Position numbers and translations under genes: made by a program
Origin: Pseudarthrobacter sulfonivorans
Lineage (GTDB): Bacteria; Actinomycetota; Actinomycetes; Actinomycetales; Micrococcaceae
Assembly (NCBI RefSeq): GCF_014712225.1
Contig: NZ_JACXBW010000018.1
Location: forward strand, 1 to 64,000
DNA: 64,000 nt
Direction of reading: 5' to 3'
Part shown: positions 158-61,783 of the stretch, in pieces
How the letters are laid out: every line of letters begins with the position of its first letter
Position numbering within the stretch: the stretch's first letter is position 1
The notes under the pieces: generated by a model
What the model was told of the DNA's origin: nothing
What the model saw: the letters and a program-made list of their open reading frames with translations, nothing else
Database searches by the model: none

Positions 158-811
158 GTGATCCGCGTGTTCAATATCCCCGCAATTACCTGGACCCTCA
201 CAATAATCCTGCTGCTCAGTGGCAGCTACCACCTCCTGCAGGCCGCCAAACCACACCAGCTCACCGACCGGGTCAACAACACCCTCCACGCCCTCATGAA
301 CATCCTGATGGCCGCCATGCTCTGGAACTTCGCACCTTCCACCATGCTCGCCCAAATCGCCGTGCTCACGGGCGCAGCCCTCTGGTTCGTCATCCAGGCC
401 GTCGCCCGGCCCGAATTCAAAATCCTCTGTGCAGGCAGCCAAGGCCGCCTGAAATGCGTTTACCACAGCGTGAGCATGGGCGGCGCTGCAGTCATGATTG
501 CCATGATGGGTCAGGTCACTGGCGGCCACGCGCCGTCACCCGCGATGTCAATGCCGAACGCCCATCACTCCATGGCCGCGGCAACCCCAAGCACGGCCGC
601 GGCAACCTTTGACCACTCACCGGGCCTGGCAATCCTGCTGACAGCGATATTCGGCGCCGCAGCGGCGGTTTTCATTCTTCTGGTAGTCCTTACCGGCACG
701 AGGAAAACCACTCGCCACGACGCTTCGCGACGTTCCAACCGTGCAGGACATGGGCTGGAAGCTCTCGGGGCCGCCGCCATGGCCATGATGTTTGCCACGA
801 TGTCCTCATGA
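158..811 (+). CDS. DUF5134 family membrane protein
   Basis: A 217-residue integral membrane protein of unknown function. It reads as a DUF5134 protein: an N-terminal hydrophobic segment (residues 7-25), two further segments near 45-85, one near 107-122 and one near 152-180. A His/Met-rich stretch around residues 124-140 (HAPSPAMSMPNAHHSM) could bind metal, and DUF5134 genes often lie near copper-handling genes, but no copper gene is visible here. It starts with GTG; a short GAG-containing segment lies just upstream. Transcription probably ends at the hairpin at 863-898. The membrane call is secure and the metal link is speculative. Confidence 0.75.
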   Translation: MIRVFNIPAITWTLTIILLLSGSYHLLQAAKPHQLTDRVNNTLHALMNILMAAMLWNFAPSTMLAQIAVLTGAALWFVIQAVARPEFKILCAGSQGRLKCVYHSVSMGGAAVMIAMMGQVTGGHAPSPAMSMPNAHHSMAAATPSTAAATFDHSPGLAILLTAIFGAAAAVFILLVVLTGTRKTTRHDASRRSNRAGHGLEALGAAAMAMMFATMSS

Positions 812-54917: not shown

Positions 54918-55448
54918 ATGACTTCCACGCCCTTCAATGCGCTCCTGTCCACCCAGATCGGTAACGAGTTCGCGGCCTCGCAGCAGTACATCGCGGTGGC
55001 CACGTGGTTCGCCAACCAGGACCTTCCGCAACTGGCCCGCTACTTCTACCGGCAGTCGGTGGAGGAACGGAACCACGCCATGATGATGGTCCAGTACATG
55101 CTGGACCGAGACATCGTCTTCTCCATCCCGGGCGTCCCCGCCGTGCGGAACGACTTCGCCAACGTGACCGAGCCGCTGGCCCTGGCCCTGCAGCAGGAGA
55201 AGGAAGTGACCGCCAACATCGAGGCCCTCTTCCGCGCCGCCCGCGCCGAGGACGACGCCCTGGGTGAGCAGTTCATGCTCTGGTTCCTCAAGGAGCAGGT
55301 GGAGGAAGTCGCCTCCATGACCACCCTCCTGAACATCGCCGAACGCGCGGACAACCTCTTCGACATCGAGAACTTCATCGCCCGTGAAACCATCGGCGAC
55401 GGCGGCCGCGACTCCTCCGCCCCCGAAGCTGCCGGCGGCGCGCTCTAG
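54918..55448 (+). CDS. Ferritin (iron storage, non-haem)
   Basis: A 176-residue four-helix ferritin, most like bacterial FtnA/BfrB. The ferroxidase ligands lie in QIGNEFAASQQYIAVATWF, QSVEERNHAMMMVQYM and LKEQVEEVASM; there is no haem-binding Met pattern that would mark bacterioferritin. It stores iron as a 24-mer nanocage. The C-terminus after residue 155 is a short Gly/Ser/Ala tail. Confidence 0.92.
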   Translation: MTSTPFNALLSTQIGNEFAASQQYIAVATWFANQDLPQLARYFYRQSVEERNHAMMMVQYMLDRDIVFSIPGVPAVRNDFANVTEPLALALQQEKEVTANIEALFRAARAEDDALGEQFMLWFLKEQVEEVASMTTLLNIAERADNLFDIENFIARETIGDGGRDSSAPEAAGGAL

Positions 55449-55531
55449 TCCCACCGGTGAGGCTGGCCACCAACCCGGCCACCCGCCGTCGGGGTTTGCT
55501 ACGCTGGAAATAAGGCTCCGCAATCGGGCCT

Positions 55532-55572
55532 CCGGACGACGGTTCAGTACCCGGCACGCGACAAGACTGGCC
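55532..55572 (+). promoter_or_regulatory. Guanidine-III (ykkC-III) riboswitch aptamer
   Basis: A 41-nt element whose conserved blocks CCGGACGA (55532-55539), GTACCCGG (55547-55554) and GACAAGAC (55560-55567) have the order and spacing I recall for the guanidine-III aptamer of Thermobifida. CCGG/CCGG pairing and CAGT/ACTG pairing can form its pseudoknotted fold. It ends 1 nt before AAGGA, the ribosome binding site of the SMR gene, so guanidine would control translation initiation. TACGCT (55500-55505) is a plausible -10. Confidence 0.85.
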
Positions 55573-55584
55573 AAAGGATCTGTC

Positions 55585-55908
55585 ATGTCGTGGTTAGTCC
55601 TCATTCTTTCCGGGTCGTTGGAGGCCGTCTGGGCAGCCGCCCTGCACCGAACCTTCGAGTCATCAGGCCGCCGCCGCGTCGCACCCGCACTCCTTTTCCT
55701 GGTCTCCGTCCTTGCCAGCATGGCCGGCCTCGCCATCGCCATGCAGTCCATTCCCACCGGAACCGCCTACGCCGTCTGGGTGGGCGTGGGCGTGGTGCTG
55801 ACCTCCGCGTACGCGATTCTCACCAAGGCTGAACGTCCGACGACGGCGCGCCTCCTGCTGCTCACGGGCATCGCTGCGTGCGTGGTTGGCCTGAAGGTGG
55901 TGGCGTGA
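55585..55908 (+). CDS. SMR-family guanidinium exporter, subunit 1 (Gdx-like)
   Basis: A 107-residue, four-helix small multidrug resistance protein. The membrane-embedded Glu13 (SGSLEAVWAAALHR) and GTAYAVWVGVGVVLTS are present. It is followed, with a one-base TGATG overlap, by a second SMR gene, the pattern of heterodimeric YkkCD-type pairs. The guanidine-III riboswitch 12 nt upstream makes guanidinium export, rather than drug efflux, the likely role. Confidence 0.9.
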   Translation: MSWLVLILSGSLEAVWAAALHRTFESSGRRRVAPALLFLVSVLASMAGLAIAMQSIPTGTAYAVWVGVGVVLTSAYAILTKAERPTTARLLLLTGIAACVVGLKVVA

Positions 55909-56270
55909 TGAACCCGCGTTCCGTTGCATGGCTGCTGCTCCTGGCCTCCGCCGTCCTCGAGGCGGTCTGGGCCACTGCTTTGGGCCTGTCCGACGGTTTC
56001 ACCCGCCCGCTGCCCACCGCTGTCTTCGCCGTGACGTCCACGCTGAGCATGATCGGTCTGGGGCTCGCCATCCGAAGCATCCCGCTTGGCACCGCTTACG
56101 CCGTCTGGGTGGGGATCGGGGCTGCGTTGACGGTGGGCTGGGCAATGGCCACCGGCGTCGAACCCTTCAGCGTGCTGAAAGTCCTGTTCATCGCCGGGAT
56201 TGTGGGCTGCGCGGCGGGCTTGAAGTCCCTGCCCGCTGAGGCCAGGGTCCGCGAGGACCAGCCGGTTTAG
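55908..56270 (+). CDS. SMR-family guanidinium exporter, subunit 2 (Gdx/SugE-like)
   Basis: A 120-residue, four-helix SMR protein. Glu18 lies in SAVLEAVWATALGLSDGFTR, close to the Gdx/SugE signature (E-x2-WA-x2-L-x-S-x-GFT). IRSIPLGTAYAVWVGIGAALTV follows, then a short hydrophilic tail. It shares its ATG with the TGA of subunit 1 (TGATG), so expression is coupled and both depend on the riboswitch. Together they probably form an antiparallel heterodimer. Confidence 0.9.
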   Translation: MNPRSVAWLLLLASAVLEAVWATALGLSDGFTRPLPTAVFAVTSTLSMIGLGLAIRSIPLGTAYAVWVGIGAALTVGWAMATGVEPFSVLKVLFIAGIVGCAAGLKSLPAEARVREDQPV

Positions 56271-58776: not shown

Positions 58777-60726
58777 CTAGCGGCTGCGGCGTTCGTTCGA
58801 AGCCGGAGCCGACGCGCGGCGGGGGCCGCTGCGTGCCGGACGGCCTTCACCGGAACGGCCGCCGCCGCCGTTGCCTGCGTACGAGCCACCGGAAGTACCA
58901 CCGGTGTTGGAGGACCAAACAGCCTTGTTGCCGCCGCCGGCCGCGCCGGCACCTGCAGAGCGCTGGACGCCGCCGGTCCGGGCACCTGCAGCGGCGCCTG
59001 CACCGGCAGTGCGTGCGCCCGCTGCGCGCTGGCCGGTTGCCGGACGGCCGTTACGCTGTCCGCCGGACGACGCCGGGCGGCCGGAGGAAGCCGGACGTCC
59101 GGTTCCGCCGCGGGGAGCATCGCTGCGGGTGATTCGGGAATCCGTGCGGCCGTCAGAGCTGCGTCCGTCCGAACCGCGGCCGGCCGCGGCACGGCCACCT
59201 GCTGCGGGGACGTCGTTGCGGTGCGTTGAACCAGTGGTGCCGCGGGCGTTGCGGCGTGCAGCTGCTGCCGCGATGGCGCGGTCCTCGTTCTGCTCAGCTA
59301 CGCGATCGAATGCTGCCCGTGCCTCGGTGCGGCCTTCGTAAGCCACGGCGCGGCGCTCTGCCCGGGGCAGGTCGGTGCGGGGAGCCTCAGCCGAGACACG
59401 TCCGCGGCCGCCACGTCCACCACGGCCACCGGCGGTGGGGCCGTCCTGGCTGCGGCGGGCGCGCTTGCGCTCGGCATTGGCACCCGTGGAGGTGCCGCCA
59501 CCGGACTGCTTGGCCTTGGTGGCCAGCAGTGCCGCACGGGTGCGGGGATCAATCTTGTCGGCCATTTCGCCCACGAGTTCAGCAACCAGCGGCGAGTTGG
59601 CGGTGACGCGCTCGAAGTTGACCTCGACGCCGGCAGCCTTCATCAGCTTCTTGACGTCGGACTGCTGCTCCGGGAGGGTCAGCGTCACAACAGTGCCGTC
59701 CGAACCTGCCCGGGCGGTGCGGCCTGAGCGGTGCAGGTATGCCTTGTGCTCTGTGGGCGGATCAACGTGGATGACCAGTTCGACGTCGTCCACATGGACG
59801 CCGCGGGCGGCGACGTCGGTGGCCACCAGGACGCGCACGTCACCGGAGGAGAACTCGGCGAGGTTCCGGTCACGGGCGTTCTGCGAGAGGTTGCCGTGCA
59901 GGTCGACGGCGGGGATCCCGGCGTCGGTCAGGGTCTTGGCGAGCTTGCGGGCGTGGTGCTTGGTCCGCATGAAAAGTACGCGGCGGCCGGCACCCGAGGC
60001 GAGCTCGACGATCAGCTGCTTCTTGACGGTCTGGTCGTTGACCACCAGCACGTGGTGTTCCATGGTGGTCACCGCGGCCTGCGGGTCATCCACGGAGTGG
60101 GTCAGCGGGTTGGACAGGTAGCGCTGGACGATCTTGTCCACGCCGTTGTCCAGGGTGGCGGAGAAGAGCATGCGCTGGCCCTGGCTGGGGGTCATGTCCA
60201 TCAGCTTCTTGACCACGGGCAGGAAGCCGAGGTCGGCCATGTGGTCGGCCTCGTCCAGGACGGTGACCTCAACGGCTTCGAGGGTCAGGATGCGCTGGCG
60301 GATCAGGTCCTCCAGGCGGCCCGGGCAGGCGATGACGATGTCGACGCCGGCGCGCAGGGCCTTTTCCTGGCGGGCCTGGGAGATGCCGCCGTAGACCACG
60401 GTGGTGTTCAGGCCCATGGCCTTGGCCATCGGCTCGATGGTGGCGTTGAGCTGGGTGGCCAGCTCGCGGGTCGGTGCGAGGACCAGGCCCATGGGGCGGC
60501 CGGGCTTGCGGAAGTGCTTGGCTTCCCGCTCAGCGAGTCGTGCTACAAGCGGGATGGCGAAAGCGATGGTCTTGCCGGAGCCGGTGCGGCCGCGGCCCAG
60601 GACGTCGCGTCCGGCCAGGGTGTCCGGGAGTGTCTTCACCTGGATGGGGAACGGCTCAAGAATTCCTTGTGCGGTGAGGGTCTCGGCAAGTTCTTTGGGC
60701 GTGCCGAGGGCAGCAAAAGTAGTCAT
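58777..60726 (-). CDS. DEAD-box RNA helicase, RhlE/DeaD-like, with long basic RGG-type tail
   Basis: A 649-residue ATP-dependent RNA helicase. Motifs in order: Q-motif region EPFPIQVKTLP, Walker A GRGRTGSGKT, PTRELA, VLDEADHMADLGF, SAT, and C-terminal VATDVAARGVHVDDVELVIH and HRSGRTARAG. The last 240 residues are a disordered, Arg/Gly/Ala/Ser-rich basic tail (for example GGRGGRGGRGR), as in cold-induced helicases of actinobacteria, probably for RNA binding or condensate formation. The 5' leader (60727-60957) is long and contains a translated ORF with an intrinsic terminator inside it. Confidence 0.94.
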   Translation of the reverse strand: MTTFAALGTPKELAETLTAQGILEPFPIQVKTLPDTLAGRDVLGRGRTGSGKTIAFAIPLVARLAEREAKHFRKPGRPMGLVLAPTRELATQLNATIEPMAKAMGLNTTVVYGGISQARQEKALRAGVDIVIACPGRLEDLIRQRILTLEAVEVTVLDEADHMADLGFLPVVKKLMDMTPSQGQRMLFSATLDNGVDKIVQRYLSNPLTHSVDDPQAAVTTMEHHVLVVNDQTVKKQLIVELASGAGRRVLFMRTKHHARKLAKTLTDAGIPAVDLHGNLSQNARDRNLAEFSSGDVRVLVATDVAARGVHVDDVELVIHVDPPTEHKAYLHRSGRTARAGSDGTVVTLTLPEQQSDVKKLMKAAGVEVNFERVTANSPLVAELVGEMADKIDPRTRAALLATKAKQSGGGTSTGANAERKRARRSQDGPTAGGRGGRGGRGRVSAEAPRTDLPRAERRAVAYEGRTEARAAFDRVAEQNEDRAIAAAAARRNARGTTGSTHRNDVPAAGGRAAAGRGSDGRSSDGRTDSRITRSDAPRGGTGRPASSGRPASSGGQRNGRPATGQRAAGARTAGAGAAAGARTGGVQRSAGAGAAGGGNKAVWSSNTGGTSGGSYAGNGGGGRSGEGRPARSGPRRASAPASNERRSR

Positions 60727-60784
60727 AGATTCAAGGTCTTTCAGGCGGTATCCGTGCGGATATCGGCCCCCGATGCCGGTTGGC

Positions 60785-60946
60785 TCAAGGGTTTCGCCGA
60801 AGAAAATTCAGGTGATCAACCGGGCTGCTGCCCAATTCAGGGCGGCGGCCGGGACCAAATGGAACGCGTTCATCGACGCAGGATGTGCCTCTCACATGAA
60901 AAAACCCGCTTCCCAAAAATAGGGACCGGCGGGCATCACTGCACAT
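60785..60946 (-). CDS. Leader peptide ORF of the DEAD-box helicase gene (53 aa)
   Basis: A 53-codon ORF starting at ATG 60946, with AGGGGA 4 nt upstream, and ending 58 nt before the helicase start. Its N-terminus is MCSDARRSLFLGSGFFHV. Codons 5-16 span an intrinsic terminator hairpin and its six-U tract (coding Phe-Phe), so ribosome movement through the ORF would disrupt the terminator. This is the logic of translational attenuation. Whether the peptide itself matters is unknown. I know of no described family. Confidence 0.55.
   Translation of the reverse strand: MCSDARRSLFLGSGFFHVRGTSCVDERVPFGPGRRPELGSSPVDHLNFLRRNP
60899..60933 (-). terminator. Intrinsic terminator (attenuator) in the helicase leader
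   Basis: On the minus strand CCCGC-CGG-TCCC, loop TATTTTT, GGGA-A-GCGGG, then TTTTTT: an outer 5-bp and an inner 4-bp stem followed by a U6 tract. There is no upstream gene on this strand to terminate; the next one lies beyond 61784. It therefore acts on the helicase transcript. Confidence 0.75.
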
Positions 60947-60957
60947 CAAGTCCCCTA

Positions 60958-60963
60958 AGCATA
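60958..60963 (-). promoter_or_regulatory. Candidate -10 of the helicase transcript
   Basis: TATGCT on the minus strand predicts a start site near 60951, just before the leader ORF. No clear -35 hexamer is visible. Confidence 0.4.
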
Positions 60964-61060
60964 CCATCCCGCTGCCCCCAGCCCTGATTCGACCCCGCGG
61001 ACAGGCAAGCGTGCGGACGGGACCGTTGCCTTCCAAGCCGGGCCGGGGCAGGCTTGAGGC

Positions 61061-61783
61061 ATGACGCGACAGGGCGAGGGCCACCACCACGGAACGGACG
61101 ACGGCGGCACGCGCCAGGAGGGTCGGCGGCAGCAAAGTGCGGCTGAAGCCTGGGACGAGAAATACGGCAGCAAGCCGCAGATCTGGAGCGGCAAACCGAA
61201 CCCGCAGCTGGTCCGCGAGGGTGCCGGCCTGCGTCCGGGGAAAGCACTGGACCTGGGTTGCGGCGAAGGTGCGGACGCCATCTGGCTCGCGCAGCAGGGC
61301 TGGACCGTCACGGCCGTCGATATTTCCGCCGTCGCGCTGGAACGCGCCGCCAGGCACGAAAAAGATGCCTTGGACCGCGAAAGCGTGCACGCGGGACCTG
61401 ACGCCATCGCCAGCCGCATCCACTGGGAACAGTGCGACCTGGACGAGTGGCAGCCCGCGGAGACCTACGATCTGGTGTCGTCCCAGTTCCTGCACGGACC
61501 CCAGCTGGTTTGGCAGGCTCCGCTGCGGACGGCGGCCGCCGCGGTCAAGCCGGGTGGAACACTGCTGATCGTGGGCCACCACCCGCACCGCCTGCCGCCG
61601 TGGGGAAACCACACCGCCCCGGAAATGTTCTATACCCCTGCCCAGCTCGTCCAGGAACTGGGCATCGAGTCCCCAGGCTGGCAGGTGGAGGTCAACACCA
61701 CGCGGGATCGGGTCGCCAACGGGCCGGACGGGCAGGAAGCCGTCATCGCCGATACCGTGCTCCGGGCCACCCGGCTGGCCTGA
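61061..61783 (+). CDS. Class I SAM-dependent methyltransferase
   Basis: A 240-residue methyltransferase. After a hydrophilic, His-rich N-terminus (about 25 residues) come WDEKYGSKPQIWSGKPN, the SAM motif I ALDLGCGEGADAIWLAQQGW, motif II VTAVDISAVALERA and DLVSSQFLHGP. The family resembles the tellurite/thiopurine-type methyltransferases acting on small molecules. It abuts the convergent MFS gene with no intergenic base, so the two messages may overlap. Confidence 0.88.
   Translation: MTRQGEGHHHGTDDGGTRQEGRRQQSAAEAWDEKYGSKPQIWSGKPNPQLVREGAGLRPGKALDLGCGEGADAIWLAQQGWTVTAVDISAVALERAARHEKDALDRESVHAGPDAIASRIHWEQCDLDEWQPAETYDLVSSQFLHGPQLVWQAPLRTAAAAVKPGGTLLIVGHHPHRLPPWGNHTAPEMFYTPAQLVQELGIESPGWQVEVNTTRDRVANGPDGQEAVIADTVLRATRLA

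Follow-up and report, generated by a model that had tools for sequence, protein, structure and literature searches.

A conserved leader RNA before a DEAD-box helicase gene of Arthrobacter, probably elaborated into an early-terminating attenuator

The leader of a DEAD-box RNA helicase gene in Pseudarthrobacter sulfonivorans is probably a gene-specific structured RNA that has been elaborated within its genus into an early-terminating attenuator, with autoregulation as its probable role. The older part of the leader would run from a hairpin (P1) at the 5' terminus through the core GCGUCGAUGAACGC and a further hairpin (P3) to a 3' domain ending at the ribosome binding site; a terminator hairpin set into the P1 loop appears to be the younger part. 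The window, the whole stretch of DNA that was analyzed, comprises 64,000 nucleotides of contig NZ_JACXBW010000018.1.

The helicase gene occupies positions 58777-60726 of the minus strand, with its start at 60726, and encodes a protein of 649 aa with a Gly/Arg-rich tail and with the DEAD and Helicase_C domains (Pfam PF00270 and PF00271). None of the best 25 NCBIfam families reached its equivalog cut-off. The next gene upstream of the leader is a divergent methyltransferase (61061-61783, plus strand), and the preliminary description was right that the minus strand has no gene upstream for which this terminator would be required. All leader features likewise lie on the minus strand. An extended -10 promoter element, TGGTATGCT (TGnTAnnnT, 60958-60966), is followed by the 5' strand of P1, GATGTGC (60941-60947), near the predicted RNA 5' end, then by the terminator hairpin (60904-60934) with its U tract (T6, 60899-60904), and by CATGTGAGAGGCACATC (60882-60898), which includes the 3' strand of P1 (60882-60888). 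The core GCGTCGATGAACGC (60866-60879), near-invariant in the family, contains hairpin P2 (GCGU/ACGC). Folds and a swap test outline hairpin P3 (60813-60857), written GGUC-CCGG ... CCGG-UU-GAUC(A) with a two-nucleotide bulge. The 3' domain UUUUCUUCGGCG ... CGCCUGAAAG (60738-60806), with an inner CCC/GGGG hairpin, comes from a consensus fold, and GAAAGACC (60735-60742) is by its sequence the putative helicase ribosome binding site, at the position of which relatives carry GAAAG or a variant.

The terminator hairpin within the genus

We compared 61 same-genus leaders: that of the window and 60 upstream regions spread over the helicase ranking, with the genus taken as Arthrobacter in the GTDB sense, Pseudarthrobacter included. 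A helicase match is present in 150 of 150 genus genomes, with E-values of at most 2.5e-116 except in two (G029 and G131, about 1e-73). The same-genus leaders share one layout: the -10 box, CTTGATGTGC, the hairpin, CATGTGAGAGGCAC(A/G)TCCTGCGTCGATGAACG, and a conserved stretch up to the helicase start codon, which is ATG in 55 leaders and TTG in six. The TGnTAnnnT box occurs in 61/61 leaders and ends exactly 11 nt 5' of a leader ATG in every one of them, and the 5' strand of P1 is identical throughout. Because the box ends at this distance, transcription would ordinarily start about 5 nt before the ATG, at approximately 60951.

A hairpin occupies the terminator site in all 61 leaders, and the last 7 nt before the conserved block contain at least five T in 60 of them (the T tract is interrupted in five of the 61). 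The last hairpin pair lies within 7 nt of the conserved block. With flanks, the hairpin measures 29-111 nt and takes 56 distinct forms, hypervariable in both sequence and length. These forms nonetheless fold stably, with a mean of -27.7 kcal/mol and a mean z of -3.1 (z below -2 in 51/56); the hairpin of the window reaches -17.0 kcal/mol (z -2.7). The terminator hairpin is therefore beyond chance as a genus-wide feature. Such a strong hairpin with a U tract close to the predicted start is the arrangement of an early leader terminator of the GraL type. Within the window, at least five T follow a stable fold at 10 places, two of which are the leader hairpin; a simple terminator scan of the window missed this hairpin, probably owing to the interruption in the stem. 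The fold of the whole window leader by itself gives z -1.33, with 19 of 200 shuffles equally good, and the case for a structured leader rests on comparison, not on this fold.

The T-tract terminator in the P1 loop is seen in GTDB Arthrobacter only. Among 53 family leaders outside the genus, five T in 7 nt (no more than 65 nt from the core) occur in nine and six T in none, and by eye the nine T-rich runs are promoter, P1-strand or loop letters. The non-genus relative closest by score (L064, g29; 443-499, minus strand) keeps GATGTGC, CATGTG and GCACATC with a hairpin between them, and has AATTTC in place of the T tract; it possibly represents an intermediate or a lost terminator.

Distribution and helices of the leader RNA

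The 34-nt block TTCATGTGAGAGGCACRTCCTGCGTCGATGAACG, of which the CATGTGAGAGGCACATC stretch is a part, is found with at most two mismatches in 206/206 genus genomes, with one match per genome row, and a reversed-pattern control in the same genomes gave 0 matches. A search with the covariance model (CM) R1 recovers the element in 69 of the 197 genomes of the family, representing 11 of 32 genera including this one, and does not detect it in the other 128. We fetched 55 of the 59 loci matched outside the genus: 53 lie directly before the same helicase gene, and the remaining two (L109 and L114) are second, weaker matches in genomes that have a first one. A scan with a core + TCCCG pattern over a collection of 84,980 species agrees with this placement. 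A helicase motif follows the core at a distance of 240-305 nt in 26 of the 80 matches listed, and the match precedes the helicase in 26 of 27 Arthrobacter, Pseudarthrobacter or Micrococcaceae records vs 0 of 53 others. The sole Micrococcaceae record among the matches listed that does not precede the helicase, from Arthrobacter sp. HMWF013 (L144), is by eye a chance match in an unrelated coding region. A consistent place before one gene, on the same strand, is what a structured cis-regulatory leader RNA would display.

Beyond the family the signal is diverged. The helicase has a match in 118/119 order genomes, and a family-only build, CM R2, finds the element in place (E at most 0.018) in 6 of the first 20 order helicase upstream regions and in 6 of 20 further, later ones: a diverged element in 12/40 order upstream regions from other genera, undetected in the other 28 (L252, among the first 20, belongs to the same family as the window). 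These E-values are rough, since one of the second 20 (L289) gave an off-place match at E 0.0015. CM R2 has a poor automatic structure of 11 pairs and was used as a profile of the sequence; the weak matches that it gave in whole genomes outside the family (E 5e-6 to 1e-3) were left uncounted. A motif pattern matches 9/20 of the first order loci (shuffle mean 0.5) and 8/20 of the second (shuffle mean 0.8, maximum 4; reverse strand 0), one of the latter (L292) far from the expected place; only the second 20 count as a test, because the pattern was written after viewing the first. In 19 class loci CM R2 detects nothing (best E 0.11), and the motif pattern matches one, which is the chance level. 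The order (20 + 20) and class (20) loci were taken non-randomly from the top of the protein match lists, and one class locus cut at a contig end (L266) was dropped.

Several upstream regions carry other conserved runs. Three from order family f8 (L287, L288 and L296) have in common a compact run resembling a leader, GCGCCCC(G/A)CGTCGTGGAGATCCCC; it also occurs in L240 and L244 and may be a shortened version of the RNA described here. In class family f22, two upstream regions (L256 and L258) contain CACGTCGTGAAACGC or CACGTCGTGGAACACC together with GGCGATCG..GGCAATCTCGCC, which by eye resemble the core and the 3' domain; the pattern catching them was written post hoc and is uncounted. Helicase homologues from other orders of the class (L268, L269 and L270) are preceded by a conserved run of their own, CAGCTCGTCGA followed by CTGCCGCGAGTTGTCCGC, which may belong to another leader or to one that has diverged very far.

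The pairing of P1 was examined by a swap test across genera, in which own strands gave -12.2 and swapped strands -7.7 kcal/mol. None of 10000 permutations was as low, the permutations being not fully corrected for relatedness; when each distinct 3' strand is represented by a single row (n=32), the values are -12.6 and -7.5 kcal/mol. Dropped from this test were 22 of 126 leaders lacking TGnTAnnnT, including 10 of the 12 order loci entered. Outside the genus P1 is a hairpin at the predicted 5' end, with letters that vary while pairing is kept. The P3 test used 44 leaders hand-picked over 11 genera (L106 was dropped, and L073 is anchored wrongly) and gave -12.7 for own strands vs -11.1 kcal/mol, with 0/10000 permutations as low and 13/10000 at the genus level. 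By these tests P1 covaries strongly and P3 moderately, as conserved structure in a cis-regulatory leader RNA would. The 3' domain as modelled could cover the helicase ribosome binding site. The swap test gives it no support, and a helix of the consensus fold that would hide this site fails the test (own -9.7, permuted -10.1 at the genus level).

Within the genus, the P1 3' strand GCACATC has two partners: GATGTGC, forming a duplex of -11.4 kcal/mol, or CATGTG, forming a possible local hairpin P1' (ATGTG/CACAT) of -3.2 kcal/mol.

Searches of Rfam release 15, which includes Actino-pnp, returned no match for the window leader at E up to 10 or for 12 relatives at E up to 1, and we found no description of the leader in the literature searched, the coverage of which is incomplete. 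The sole Rfam match in the window is a Guanidine-III (ykkC-III) riboswitch at 55510-55575 on the plus strand (52.9 bits), unrelated to the leader. Two small ORFs after it (inside 55384-55908, and 55878-56270) resemble by eye a paired SMR-type transporter, an ordinary and known association.

Alternative explanations of the leader

The preliminary description saw an attenuator-like leader in which ribosomes translating a 53-codon ORF would unfold the terminator, so that translation speed or cold stress would govern how much helicase is expressed. The ORF exists as described (60785-60946, with its ATG at 60946 and its stop ending at 60785), and so do the hairpin and T6 inside its codons. The terminator is also kept across the genus sample, whereas the proposed control by translation of the ORF did not survive the comparison. 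The leader ATG is present in 61/61 leaders, and each ORF, of at least 7 codons, extends to the 5' arm of the hairpin; uORF attenuation is moreover known in actinobacteria, for instance in ilvB-II of Corynebacterium (PMC10272879). Aligning the upstream regions of relatives, as the preliminary description had suggested, yields a hairpin in every same-genus leader and no conserved ORF. ORF length ranges over 7-58 codons, and the stop precedes the end of the U tract in 27/61 leaders. Among the 56 distinct hairpins, the ORF frame has the fewest stop-free forms (29, where the other frames have 42 and 38), and hairpin lengths modulo 3 are even (19, 16 and 21), revealing no triplet rule. The terminator thus overlaps the ORF, as in a leader-peptide attenuator, without a conserved in-frame stretch from start to stop. 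The supposedly good ribosome binding site fares no better: with a start near 60951, AGGGGA (60951-60956) falls in the spacer between the -10 box and the start, outside the predicted transcript, and an SD-like match of 4 or more letters precedes the leader ATG in 13/61 leaders and is absent in 48. The first ORF codons are constant because the RNA is constant there. A second ORF, from the core ATG, was rejected likewise: it spans 11 to 58 codons in the 61 leaders without a common stop, and its ATG is missing in 4/53 family leaders. Variable length and an unfavoured frame rule out the leader peptide as a conserved feature, and control of the terminator by translation is very unlikely; a weaker version, translation of just the first 7 or more codons, is strictly speaking still conceivable.

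The variability of the hairpin is compatible with selection for termination alone, since strength and T tract are kept while the sequence is not, and no antiterminator partner is visible. These features would suit a constitutive leaky terminator that does no more than lower helicase transcription, while the conserved leader has an effect of its own on mRNA stability or translation. We consider this unlikely: the fixed place of the terminator in the P1 loop and the strictness of the flanking block (206/206) suggest coupling to the remaining leader. A large, near-invariant, multi-helix leader without an Rfam match could also be a small-molecule riboswitch of a new class controlling the helicase. 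Metabolite riboswitches usually precede several metabolic or transport genes, however, whereas this leader gives one match per genus genome and stands before the same RNA-helicase gene wherever checked, which makes a riboswitch quite improbable. The least probable reading, to which we give hardly any credence, is that the leader imitates 16S or 23S rRNA and is bound by the helicase or a ribosomal protein. It draws on short look-alikes of the 16S 5' end (ATCCTG..GATGAACGC) and 3' end (GATCACCT), but GATCACCT is not retained in other genera, and local alignment to the rRNAs of the organism itself is at the chance level for both 16S (21.0; shuffles 20.9) and 23S (20.0; shuffles 21.7), so mimicry by sequence was rejected.

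Proposed mechanism and comparable systems

A gene-specific structured leader with an embedded early terminator remains the reading that we favour. RNA polymerase would reach the stop signal in the P1 loop approximately 20 nt after the start; transcripts would then either end at the hairpin, where termination is predicted from the sequence, or read through, fold the remaining leader and express the helicase. Since the 5' arm of the hairpin is hypervariable, no fixed antiterminator lies upstream of the hairpin, and control, if it exists, has to be exerted by proteins, by the condition of RNA polymerase or at a stage after read-through. The signal may be the level or activity of the helicase itself, giving negative autoregulation, and cold-shock-type RNA chaperones would perhaps ease read-through in the cold. 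With two partners for its 3' strand, P1 may act as a strand-exchange switch. P1 is frozen in the genus and free in other genera, presumably because in the genus three strands must match one another.

A more specific proposal, which we advance tentatively and rate as possible rather than probable, is that of a helicase-sensing RNA across the order Actinomycetales, with the leader fold as a substrate of the helicase that it controls. In Arthrobacter, the helicase or cold RNA chaperones would shift the P1 3' strand between its two partners around the embedded terminator, and so decide between a short RNA and the full-length mRNA.

What suggests autoregulation, by analogy, is solely the gene specificity of the leader. 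Autoregulation is the mode of action of the Actino-pnp RNA. Ribosomal-protein leader RNAs are the familiar case in which the gene for an RNA-binding protein is preceded by a single RNA structure specific to that gene. The helicase leader would resemble the latter in its gene-specific structure and, if the analogy extends so far, in autoregulation, and differs in that its product is a DEAD-box helicase. Actino-pnp (RF01688), rated certain both as an RNA and as a cis-regulator in the survey sections that treat it (PMC2864571), is likewise a structured leader-type RNA of Actinomycetales; it belongs to another gene, pnp by its name, and the helicase leader has no Rfam match.

The closest working analogue is GraL of Escherichia coli, a terminator that is set 19 nt from the start of the greA leader and needed in cis for GreA autoregulation, according to the passages on GraL in its description (PMC6829880). 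Both are intrinsic terminators near the start (19 nt for GraL, approximately 20 nt for the helicase), and in both cases the leader is that of a gene encoding an RNA-synthesis protein. GraL yields a short RNA and controls greA in cis; autoregulation was tested for greA and would be an extrapolation for the helicase, and we claim no homology. In the same passages no large conserved RNA domain is described 3' of the GraL terminator; the helicase terminator, in contrast, sits inside P1 of a multi-helix RNA. A possible read-through mechanism is offered by terminators under the control of Csp proteins: in E. coli, CspD lowers intrinsic termination, as reported in the part of the study concerned with it (PMC9765468), and a chaperone could by analogy do so in the helicase leader. 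With ilvB-II of Corynebacterium (PMC10272879), an example of a leader-peptide attenuator, the helicase leader shares its actinobacterial setting, its standing as a candidate attenuator and an ATG close to the 5' end. It differs in lacking a conserved in-frame ORF and, in most leaders, a ribosome binding site.

The conserved leader constitutes an RNA family without a match in Rfam release 15 and offers, in soil bacteria that are harmless, a compact system in which to study how the amount of an RNA helicase is set. Its terminator is hypervariable while the surrounding RNA is frozen, a natural experiment that can show which features such a terminator requires. Should the helicase indeed remodel its own leader, one of its natural RNA substrates would thereby be available.
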